The position numbers and the translations under genes were made by a program. This document shows positions 1 through 5,700 of a DNA stretch of 64,000 nt, piece by piece. This stretch comes from Arctopsyche grandis (lineage: Eukaryota > Arthropoda > Insecta > Trichoptera > Hydropsychidae). The stretch lies in NCBI RefSeq assembly GCF_051622035.1, contig NC_135360.1:6882001-6946000 (forward strand), in the 5' to 3' direction. The stretch's first letter is position 1. Each line of letters starts with the position of its first letter. The notes beneath the pieces are model-generated. The model made no database searches, was not told the origin of the DNA, and saw only the letters and a list, made by a program, of their open reading frames with translations.

Positions 1-319
1 TCTGCTTTTATTCTGATTGGTCGAGCGCCAGAAAATTCGACCAATTACTAGTACGTTCCAGTTGCTTCTCGTTCTCACTATCAACGCTAAAATGTTCTGC
101 ACGCAACTCGTTGCCAATATTAGAATGTTACATTACTTTCTATAGTACACTATTGAATTCGAACAAAATCAAATCTATTTAAACATTCACAGTTAAATCT
201 TTTCTCCAATATTACCGCTTTAGTAAGTAAGACGAGGATCTTAAAGGCAACTAGAGGTTGTGATTTCTCGACTTTTTTTTTGATTCTCGAGATTCGAGAA
301 TCTCATTTTCTCGGAATAT
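1..319 (-). promoter_or_regulatory. Left arm of inverted hsp70 promoter duplication
   Basis: This stretch is the reverse complement of 2349-2667, with equal arm length (319 bp) and no difference in the parts compared by eye. It carries the same promoter parts as the intact hsp70, in mirror image: TATA-like box near 5-12, CCAAT at 16-20, HSE-like GAAnnTTC at 31-38 and a second CCAAT at 41-45. The window begins within a few bases of this TATA-like box, so transcription should run leftwards out of the window. I infer a second, head-to-head hsp70 copy beyond position 1. The gene itself is not visible. Confidence 0.8.
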
Positions 320-771
320 TTGAATCTCGAGATTTGAGAATCTTATTTTCTCGAAATATTTGAATCTTGAATTTTCTTTTTTGTTTCGAATCTCGAGAAT
401 TCTCGAGAAAGTATAATTTTTTTTTTAATATAGTGAATTGATGAAGACACAAACACGATATAGTAAATACACGAATAAATAAATAATAAATCAAAAATCT
501 TTGTTTTATGTGTGTTACAGTGGGGTCATATTGTCAGTGAAAATATATTTATTACGAAAATAATTATTTACGAGTTAACAAGTATACAAATCAGTCAGTT
601 TATTGAACAAAAACATGTAGTGATAAATTTAAAATATTCTCGATATTTTCGAGATTCTAATAAACGATTTCTCGAGATACGAGAATCTCAAATTTTCACA
701 ATAAAATATTCTCGAGAAACGAGAATCAAAATTTCTCGAGAATTCTCGAAATTTCTCGATCACAACCTCTA
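252..771. mobile_element. hAT-like MITE with TCTCGAGA repeats
   Basis: The termini are inverted: TAGAGGTTGTGATTTCTCGA on the left and, on the right, the complement of TAGAGGTTGTGATCGAGAAA. The interior is filled with palindromic CTCGAG and TTCTCGAGAA motifs and has no coding sequence. The octamer AAGGCAAC lies immediately left (244-251) and recurs at 858-865, after an adjoining small element, as expected for an 8-bp hAT target duplication later split by a second insertion. Superfamily assignment is inferred from TIR style and TSD length. Confidence 0.6.
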
Positions 772-2348: not shown

Positions 2349-2667
2349 ATATTCCGAGAAAATGAGATTCTCGAATCTCGAGAATCAAAAAAAAAGTCGA
2401 GAAATCACAACCTCTAGTTGCCTTTAAGATCCTCGTCTTACTTACTAAAGCGGTAATATTGGAGAAAAGATTTAACTGTGAATGTTTAAATAGATTTGAT
2501 TTTGTTCGAATTCAATAGTGTACTATAGAAAGTAATGTAACATTCTAATATTGGCAACGAGTTGCGTGCAGAACATTTTAGCGTTGATAGTGAGAACGAG
2601 AAGCAACTGGAACGTACTAGTAATTGGTCGAATTTTCTGGCGCTCGACCAATCAGAATAAAAGCAGA
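2349..2667 (+). repeat. Right arm of inverted hsp70 promoter duplication
   Basis: Mirror copy of 1-319. The arm starts inside a remnant of the hAT-like MITE (2349-2416) whose complete copy is at 252-771. It then includes the octamer GTTGCCTT (2417-2424, complement of AAGGCAAC) and the whole hsp70 upstream region to just beyond the TATA-like box. Matching arm length and lack of visible divergence indicate recent duplication or gene conversion. Confidence 0.85.
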
Positions 2668-2692
2668 GCGCGCGGCGACAGCGTCACATTCA
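2623..2692 (+). promoter_or_regulatory. hsp70 core promoter (CCAAT, HSE, TATA)
   Basis: Elements in order: inverted CCAAT (ATTGG, 2623-2627), a two-unit heat-shock-element core GAAttTTC (2630-2637), CCAAT (2648-2652) and a TATA-like AATAAAAG (2656-2663). An initiator-like CACATTCAAA near 2686-2692 lies about 30 bp downstream and resembles the Drosophila hsp70 start region. The HSE has only one well-formed dyad; neighbouring GAA units are degenerate. The motifs are read directly; the start site is inferred. Confidence 0.65.
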
Positions 2693-2780
2693 AACTCAGA
2701 GCGAGCGACAAGCGCACTCAGAGCTACGAATCGATACTTACCAACGCATATCAGTTAAAGTGCAACGAAATCAAATCAAG

Positions 2781-4694
2781 ATGCCTGCCATCGGAATCGA
2801 CTTGGGCACCACCTACTCCTGCGTTGGAGTCTGGCAACATGGAAACGTCGAGATCATCGCCAATGACCAAGGAAACCGAACGACTCCCAGCTACGTCGCT
2901 TTTACAGACACCGAGCGACTCATCGGTGATGCTGCCAAAGGACAAGCCGCTCTCAATCCCAATAACACCATTTTCGATGCCAAGCGACTCATCGGCCGCA
3001 ACATAGACGATTCAAAGGTGCAAGAAGACATGCGCCACTGGCCCTTCAAAGTCATCAGTCATGGCGGAAAGCCAACCATCGAAGTCGACTTTCAAGGACA
3101 AAAGAAGCAATTCTCCCCAGAAGAGATAAGCGCCATGGTTTTGGGAAAGATGAAGCAAACTGCCGAGGCTTATTTGGGTGAGGCAGTGTCCGAGGCTGTC
3201 GTCACGGTGCCGGCATATTTCAACGACTCTCAACGACAGGCCACCAAAGATGCAGCGGCCATTGCTGGACTCAAAGTTTTGAGGATCATCAACGAACCCA
3301 CGGCTGCTGCTCTGGCATATGGACTTGACAAGAACTTGAGTGGAGAGCGCAACATTCTCATTTTCGATCTGGGTGGAGGAACTTTCGACGTGTCAGTACT
3401 CACTGTGGACGAGGGTTCTCTGTTTGAGGTGAGGTCGACTGCTGGAGATACGCACCTCGGCGGAGAAGACTTTGACAATCGTCTCGTCAATCATCTCGTG
3501 GATGAGTTCAAGAGGAAGAATCGAAAGGACATTCGTAGTAGTCCGCGATCATTGAGACGTCTCAGAACAGCAGCTGAAAGAGCTAAGAGGACATTATCTT
3601 CAAGCACTGAAGCCACTATTGAAGTTGATGCTCTATTCGAAGGAATAGATTTCTACACTAAAGTTTCTCGAGCGCGATTTGAAGAACTTTGCGCCGATTT
3701 ATTCAGAGATACGCTGCGTCCAGTGGAGAAAGCGCTGGTGGATGCGAAATTGGATAAGAGTGCAATTCACGACGTCGTCTTAGTCGGCGGATCCACAAGA
3801 ATTCCAAAAATCCAAAGCTTATTGCAAAACTTCTTTTGCGGCAAGAATTTGAATCTATCTATAAATCCAGACGAAGCTGTAGCTTACGGTGCAGCCGTTC
3901 AAGCGGCCATTCTATCTGGAGAAAACGACAAGAAGATTCGCGATGTGTTGTTGGTAGATGTTACTCCTTTGTCCATGGGCATCGAGACAGCTGGAGGTGT
4001 GATGACCAAAATCATCGAACGCAATGCTAGGATCCCATGCAAGCAAACCCAAACGTTTTCAACGTACGCTGACAACCAACCGGGGGTTAGCATTCAGGTA
4101 TTCGAAGGAGAACGAGCCATGACTAAAGATAACAACATTTTGGGTACGTTTGAGCTGACTGGAATTCCGCCGGCTCCTCGTGGAGTGCCCAAGATTGAAG
4201 TCACTTTCGATCTAGACGCTAACGGGATCCTGAAAGTATCAGCCAAGGACACGGGATCAGGAAGAATGCGAGATATCACCATCAAAAACGACAAGGGAAG
4301 ACTTTCACAAGAGGATATCGAGCGAATGGTTTCCGAAGCCGAGAAATATCGCGAAGAAGACGAGCGTCAACAAAAACGTGTTGCTTTGCGAAACCAACTC
4401 GAAGGATACGCACTGGGAATACGGCAAACGCTGAACGAATGTGGTGATCGTTTGTCTCCGCAAGATAAAGACACTGCGACTTCTGCTGTGGAAGGAGTGC
4501 TTCGCTGGGTTGACAGCAACAGCTCGGCAGAAGTAGACGAGTTTGAACATCAGTTGCGGGAACTCACCAACGTCTGTAGTCCAATCATGACACGTCTCCA
4601 TCAATCACAACAGCAGACCAAGGGGCAAGAAAATTGCTCCCGTCAAGCTGGAGCCCAGAACTACCAGGGTCCCACAGTCGAAGAAGTCAGCTAA
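2781..4694 (+). CDS. Hsp70: Heat shock protein 70, cytosolic, inducible type (C-terminus EEVS)
   Basis: ATP-dependent chaperone of the cytosol and nucleus. The frame is uninterrupted and intronless (637 residues), as usual for heat-inducible insect Hsp70. All three family signatures are present: IDLGTTYS at residues 6-13, [14 protein letters not shown] in the nucleotide-binding domain, and [14 protein letters not shown]. The linker [15 protein letters not shown] leads into a complete substrate-binding domain and helical lid (GVLRWVDSN). The start MPAIGIDLG was chosen because it matches the family N-terminus; an in-frame upstream codon would add a non-homologous extension. The oddity is the tail GPTVEEVS: the last codon is AGC where EEVD proteins have GAC or GAT, so the TPR-cochaperone docking motif is altered. 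The Gly-rich tail is also replaced by a Gln-rich one (QSQQQTKGQ). About 90 bp of 5'UTR lie between the inferred start site and the ATG. Confidence 0.97.
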
Positions 4695-4794
4695 GCACTT
4701 ATACTACCGTGAACTATCCAGTTGCATTTTATTTTTTTTTAAAACTCATAGTTCCTTTAGTTTAATTTTAATTATATCTAAATGTGTGTATGTC

Positions 4795-4866
4795 GTAATA
4801 CAATCCTTTGTATTAATTAAAAATAAATTTTTATTTGTTTTAAAATAATAAAAATCTTTTATTTAT
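4795..4866 (+). terminator. hsp70 polyadenylation region
   Basis: AATAAA-type signals occur about 130 bp after the hsp70 stop (AAAATAAATT near 4820-4829 and AATAATAAAAATC near 4846-4858), within an AT-rich 3'UTR. A GT-rich stretch (AAATGTGTGTATGTCG, around 4780-4795) precedes them. This region is copied again downstream. Confidence 0.6.
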
Positions 4867-5222
4867 TACTTCTTGTCATTGCTCTACATTACAACGCTTA
4901 CTAGTATTTCATTCATCAGAAATAATAAGTAACGTTACTATGAATTATAAACAGGGGCACAAAAGGTACTCAGTAATGTCTAGTCTTCGGCATTGTATTA
5001 ATTAAAAAGAAATTTTTATTTGTTTTAAAATAAAACTAGATCATGAAAACGTGATCAGTGATCGATTCTGAGTTCGAATCAGTCAAAATCTCGAGTTCGA
5101 ATTTTCGCATGATCACAAAACTTCATCTATTGTTACTACGTACATAGATAAAGTAAAAATCTTTTATTTATTACTTCTTGTCATTGGCTCTACATTACAA
5201 CGTTTACACAAATTTCATTTAA
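4805..5222 (+). repeat. Tandem duplication of the hsp70 3' end, second copy interrupted
   Basis: The segment from TATTAATTAAAAA to CTCTACATTACAACG (about 4809-4903) recurs at 4995-5034 plus 5153-5210. The second copy is split by a roughly 120-bp foreign sequence (5035-5155) that is also present elsewhere in the window. The duplicated part includes the polyadenylation signals. Confidence 0.75.
5035..5155 (+). repeat. Dispersed repeat K, copy 1
   Basis: This 120-bp insertion in the duplicated hsp70 3' flank recurs in reverse complement at 39998-40118. Shared blocks include CGTGATCAGTGATCG-like, TCAGTCAAAATCTCG and GATCACAAAACTTCATC, ending in TACGTACATAGATAAAGTAA. It contains TTCGAATTTT/TTCGAACCC motifs that only weakly resemble a pol III B box. 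Unclassified. Confidence 0.7.

Positions 5223-5406: not shown

Positions 5407-5700
<294 letters not shown>

Follow-up and report, generated by a model that had tools for sequence, protein, structure and literature searches.

The C-terminal tetrapeptide EEVD serves as a hallmark of cytosolic Hsp70s, and its two jobs, one toward TPR co-chaperones and the other toward class B J-proteins, have been separated so far by peptide mutants. At Drosophila 87A, heat-inducible hsp70 genes form an inverted pair. Inverted hsp70 pairs have also been described, together with gene conversion, in Stratiomyidae, and the available portion of that study regards the inverted pair as a fundamental, probably ancient unit that is apparently primitive in Diptera (PMC3071340). 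Natural departures from the EEVD end have been described as well. According to the accessible part of its description, PfHsp70-x carries a natural EEVN tail and binds human Hop, the motif being needed for this binding (PMC6282620). A Glossina Hsp70-family gene ends in EEID, for which its authors, in the excerpt at hand, thought a sequencing error possible (PMC5597180).

The window, by which we mean the whole 64,000-nucleotide stretch of Arctopsyche grandis DNA analysed here (C6:6882001-6946000), contains on its forward strand an intact, intronless hsp70 coding sequence of 637 aa (2781..4694, with its ATG at 2781). Residues 3-606 of the product correspond to positions 1-597 of the 599 in the Pfam HSP70 model (PF00012; 829.8 bits, E 1.4e-249), so that both the ATPase and the substrate-binding domain are covered by the match. 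Among relatives with solved structures, the best are human-type HSPA1A (971 bits) and HSPA2 (959 bits), and the best BiP reaches 769 bits; being nearer to cytosolic than to ER or mitochondrial members and having no targeting signal, the protein appears to be of cytosolic type. The last codons on the same strand (4680..4694) are GAA at 4680-4682, GAA at 4683-4685, GTC at 4686-4688, AGC at 4689-4691 and TAA at 4692-4694, and thus a Ser codon stands where cytosolic Hsp70s carry an Asp codon. This end is in frame with the ATG at 2781, within the codon string GTC GAA GAA GTC AGC TAA, and the product terminates in GPTVEEVS. Numbering the tail from its last residue (4668..4691, forward strand), Pro at P7, Thr at P6, Val at P5, Glu at P4 and P3 and Val at P2 are kept, and only P1 is changed. 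Just before it, residues 608-629 (4602..4667, forward strand) form a Gln-rich linker, with 8 Gln and 2 Gly counted by eye, which in the alignment to the Hsp70 encoded on C4 stands in place of the usual Gly-rich tail. The original prediction had read the ending as Val-Glu-Glu-Val-Ser-stop, preceded by a Gln-rich tail in an otherwise intact protein, and each of these statements agrees with the codons, the linker composition and the full frame with its near end-to-end model match; the first-named Val is encoded at 4677-4679, just outside the span that had been given for the motif. An AATAAA polyadenylation-type signal, found by eye on the forward strand at 4822..4827, begins 128 nt past the stop codon. 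The sequence downstream of the gene also holds a long AT dinucleotide array shortly 3' of it (5574-5698), a mariner-type transposase fragment (PF01359; 8438-9127) and a Tc3-like helix-turn-helix fragment (PF01498; 14636-15130).

Self-comparison places the gene, together with its promoter region and 3' flank, in the right arm of a large palindrome (2349..4995, forward strand), whose left arm passes the left edge of the window and whose arms are separated by a spacer of ~2 kb. The inner part of this arm (2349-2667) equals positions 1-319 at 100% over 319 bases, and over the outer part (2668-4995) the arm is 99.7% identical to sequence beyond the left edge of the window, with 7 mismatches in 2328. 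The inner left arm (1..327, minus strand) is the upstream region of a divergent hsp70 partner encoded outside the window, and we read this partner in the assembly of 475.7 Mb and 189 contigs. It occupies C6:6881887-6879974 on the minus strand, head-to-head with the window gene, has the same AGC TAA ending, and differs from the window gene at 2 of the 1914 nt of coding sequence: codon 536 specifies Ser in the partner and Leu in the window gene, and the difference in codon 615 is silent. Near-identity of the two arms is fitted equally by a recent duplication and by gene conversion. The pair shows the intronless, divergent and inverted arrangement known from insect inducible genes, with a single open frame and a palindromic partner; the pairs of Stratiomyidae, in the available portion of PMC3071340, and that of Drosophila 87A are likewise intronless and head-to-head, with copies near-identical as under gene conversion. 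What sets the present pair apart from insect inducible Hsp70, as far as its sequence alone tells, is Ser for the terminal Asp and a Gln-rich rather than Gly-rich linker. In both copies, the C-terminal EEVD of eukaryotic cytosolic Hsp70s is absent, and EEV and the free end are retained; judged from its sequence, the product would be a cytosolic type that departs from its class in this one defining feature and conforms to it in the other features examined.

A sequencing or assembly error, which the original prediction had named as one option, is scarcely credible as the source of EEVS. The ending occurs in both arms, whose outer parts differ from each other at 7 of 2328 sites, and AGC differs from GAC at two positions and from GAT at three, at least 2 base changes thus separating it from any Asp codon; since both arms carry AGC, a multi-base slip would have been needed twice. 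We therefore regard the EEVS ending as a solid, biological observation.

Upstream of the gene, a heat-shock-element-like array of eight alternating GAA/TTC pentamers (2599..2638, forward strand) agrees with the consensus at 18 of 24 positions, a score that none of 300 dinucleotide shuffles attained, and it lies upstream of a TATA-like site, AATAAAAG, recognized by eye at 2656-2663 on the same strand. The 8-unit array is the best among three array lengths scored, the observed best being reached by 0/300 shuffles for 8 units, 6/300 for 6 units and 169/300 for 4 units. When sites were counted, the observed numbers were reached by 2/300 shuffles for 3-unit sites at ≥7/9, 39/300 for perfect 2-unit sites and 27/300 for 4-unit sites at ≥9/12, and no 3-unit site at ≥8/9 was present in the scanned hsp70 upstream sequence. 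The scans are accordingly mixed, some settings being near background. Intronless structure and a divergent pair fit an inducible gene, and heat induction of the pair is plausible from these sequence features. By eye, TTCTCGAGAA-like repeats, which hold TTC and GAA units resembling heat-shock elements, abound in the palindrome arm and spacer at 241-420, 640-780 and 2356-2410.

A recently decaying duplicate, for which the original prediction had also allowed, would be a functionless copy in which the tail is lost first, and a related copy on C12 (L014, about 16756900-16759400) is truly a pseudogene, with matches in several frames, an insertion of ~0.9 kb and upstream homology to this hsp70. For the pair itself we consider decay very improbable, because the open frame is complete in both copies, the HSP70 model is matched almost end to end, and the comparison with the pseudogene points to an old split with strongly asymmetric amino-acid change. 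Gene and pseudogene can be aligned gap-free at 434 of the 637 codons and are separated there by a dS of 1.29 and a dN of 0.071. With changes polarised by the Hsp70s of C1 and C4, at sites where both agree, 4 amino-acid changes fell on the gene branch and 32 on the pseudogene branch, 2 being ambiguous. The corresponding nucleotide counts were 6 versus 33 at codon positions 1 and 2, and 21 versus 32 at position 3, the latter being rough because synonymous sites of the C1 and C4 outgroups are saturated. As the two branches evolved at broadly comparable rates at third positions and the gene nevertheless kept its protein, the gene lineage is judged to be under purifying selection. The pseudogene was also considered as a witness of the ancestral ending and was dropped for this use, since it gave no match past about codon 460 within the 7 kb examined.

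The assembly has 52 matches to the HSP70 model, which we assigned to the following loci: the EEVS pair, the C1 Hsc70, the C4 Hsp70, BiP, one mitochondrial-type gene, three distant Hsp70-like genes, the C12 pseudogene and genes on three small, foreign-looking contigs. The ends were identified by a set of predefined motifs, and other endings would escape such a search. The Hsc70 on C1 ends in GPTIEEVD, the intron-bearing Hsp70 on C4 in GPTVEEVD and BiP in KDEL, and no listed motif was recovered at the ends of the mitochondrial-type and the three distant Hsp70-like genes. Among insect loci with the end read, EEVS is thus confined to the pair, and both of the other cytosolic-type Hsp70s (2/2) have EEVD; the one Hsp90 locus with its end read, on C4, ends in MEEVD. 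The C1 Hsc70 and the C4 Hsp70 belong to the same family as the pair, with 67% and 76% identity over the longest aligned pieces, and share with it the GPT(I/V)EEV end, but they have introns, a Gly-rich linker and EEVD. An 8-residue open frame ending in EEVD in L016 was taken as a chance occurrence and left unassigned.

Several loci of other appearance were encountered during this survey. L017 (C171) and L018 (C153) carry a divergent Hsp70 that ends in DVEEVN, with Asn for the last Asp, and whose C-terminal piece is 36-37% identical to the window protein; their contigs look like microsporidian-type contaminants. The small contigs of L019 (C149), L045 (C90) and L046 (C100) carry organelle-type or bacterial-type Hsp70 together with a divergent DnaJ, an integrase-like frame adjoining in L046 as seen by eye, and perhaps come from the same contaminant as L017 and L018. 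On the chromosome-size contig C1, a near full-length cox1 that is open under the invertebrate mitochondrial code (L040, C1:36084329-36085669) represents either mitochondrial sequence placed there in error or a copy that entered the nuclear genome recently.

A described parallel to the ending is PfHsp70-x, likewise a natural Hsp70 in which the last Asp of EEVD is replaced by a neutral polar residue, and Plasmodium falciparum, like this genome, also has an EEVD Hsp70; PfHsp70-x differs in being an exported parasite protein of an unrelated lineage that has Asn instead of Ser and binds human Hop in vitro, as far as the accessible text goes (PMC6282620). The Glossina EEID is, like that of the pair, an insect variant of the EEVD end, but from the excerpt at hand the change is at P2 and not at P1 (PMC5597180).

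The likely partners of the tail are present in the genome, with Hop on C4, CHIP on C6 and a class B J-protein on C13. When Hop TPR1 was aligned to human STIP1, whose clamp residues we take to be K8, N12, N43, K73 and R77, all five positions matched (5/5). The clamp residues of CHIP include K30, N34/N35, N65 and K95 in the available portion of PMC11393453; one TPR exon could be aligned to the human protein and conserves the residues that by spacing correspond to N65 and K95, and a motif scan did not recover the exon expected to carry the counterparts of K30 and N34/N35. The C13 J-protein aligns through CTD I to DNAJB1 (3agx/3agy), and the alignment covers the Ile-Val-Phe stretch in which, judged by spacing, the pocket residues given in the accessible part of PMC8913300 are located.

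That part of PMC8913300 also gives the peptide data against which the tail can be read, obtained with human CHIP and DnaJB4 and with Ala rather than Ser at P1. In the human Hsp70 tail, the features that matter most to CHIP are P1, P2, P5 and the carboxylate; DnaJB4, a class B J-protein, depends on P5, P3, P4 and the carboxylate, less on P7, and gains modestly from Val at P5. The side chain of the P1 Asp is required by CHIP and is dispensable for DnaJB4. An EEVD-type TPR ligand offers both an Asp side chain and a carboxylate, and here P1 is Ser and the carboxylate remains; PTVEEVS has all that is expected of a class B J-protein ligand, namely Pro at P7, an aliphatic residue at P5, Glu at P3 and P4 and a free carboxylate. 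Since the determinants of DnaJB4 are kept and only P1 is lost, the predicted outcome is weakened binding of CHIP, probably weakened binding of Hop and intact binding of class B J-proteins. The analysis suggests, in other words, that EEVS would weaken CHIP binding while the docking site for class B J-proteins stays, and we are less confident of a loss for Hop than for CHIP, because PfHsp70-x with its EEVN still binds Hop (PMC6282620). In the original prediction, Hop, CHIP and class B J-proteins all dock on the terminal Asp, which holds for CHIP and probably not for DnaJB4 (PMC8913300, in its accessible part); its view of a functional chaperone with an altered interface is supported by an intact and maintained gene, and from the available portions of PMC8913300 and PMC6282620 the alteration is probably selective rather than general.

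Our preferred reading, to which we give a probability of roughly 0.5, is that the pair encodes a working stress-type Hsp70 with a natural separation-of-function tail, in which binding of CHIP and probably of Hop would be weakened and that of J-proteins kept. The C-terminus would have changed from EEVD to EEVS before the palindromic duplication, or would have been homogenised with it. Without the Asp side chain at P1, the TPR clamp would contact one carboxylate instead of two, and CHIP and probably Hop TPR1 would bind with lower affinity; the contact with class B J-proteins, formed by Pro, Thr, Val, Glu, Glu and the free carboxylate, would be retained. Under stress, the EEVS Hsp70 would then be biased to J-protein-driven refolding, at the expense of degradation through CHIP and of transfer to Hsp90 through Hop, and the EEVD-bearing Hsp70s would keep the links to CHIP and Hop/Hsp90.

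The Ser at P1, read in one genome, may instead have arisen by neutral drift and have no consequence, being tolerated either since the carboxylate and the remaining motif suffice or since tasks involving TPR partners are covered by the EEVD Hsp70s; we hold this to be a substantial possibility, if short of likely. Compared with the C1 and C4 paralogs, the pair product shows 77-78% identity across its ATPase domain and 73-77% across its beta domain, and the values drop to 41-42% for the lid and 40-48% for the tail (27-30 residues); because lid and tail have diverged far more than the ATPase domain, the tail may just be less constrained. Persistence of two EEVD Hsp70s in the genome and Hop binding by the EEVN of PfHsp70-x (PMC6282620, accessible part) are in line with drift. 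It is harder to reconcile with P2-P7 being the same as in the C4 Hsp70 beside a rewritten linker, with the need for at least 2 base changes, and with the requirement of CHIP for the P1 Asp in the peptide assays available from PMC8913300. Returning to the separation-of-function tail, we consider it tentative, and on the whole doubtful, that this stress-type Hsp70 has left the TPR-domain triage hub for good, so that it would keep folding with class B J-proteins but would transfer no clients to CHIP for degradation or to Hop/Hsp90, such transfer being retained by the EEVD Hsp70s.

A terminal Ser with Glu at -2 and -3 presumably resembles an acidophilic kinase site, and phosphorylation of this Ser could partly restore TPR binding or block it further, so that the choice of co-chaperone would be regulated; C-terminal residues are, however, often poor kinase substrates, and we regard such a switch as unlikely. 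In its favour, a phosphomimic at P6 of human Hsp70 showed weaker binding of CHIP and unaffected binding of DnaJB4 in the available portion of PMC8913300.

Searches were extended beyond the genome. Among viral contigs, there was one pattern match and no relative, and the scan of genome contigs gave 84 pattern matches at 49 loci, all bacterial as judged by their titles, with 47-61% identity in the best segment. By title, none of the literature matches had an Hsp70 tail as its subject, most dealing with extracellular vesicles; PTVEEVS and PTIEEVS had zero occurrences among the best-ranked literature matches listed, and no EEVS Hsp70 was named among the matches listed from wider literature searches.

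The EEVS pair is a warning that cytosolic Hsp70s should not be annotated by filtering for EEVD. If our preferred reading is true, a selectively maintained EEVS beside EEVD paralogs would be a ready-made separation-of-function allele, with which it can be asked whether a stress Hsp70 needs CHIP or Hop. Should the more doubtful reading of a permanent release be true, evolution would have fixed genomically a choice that tail phosphorylation can make transiently elsewhere.
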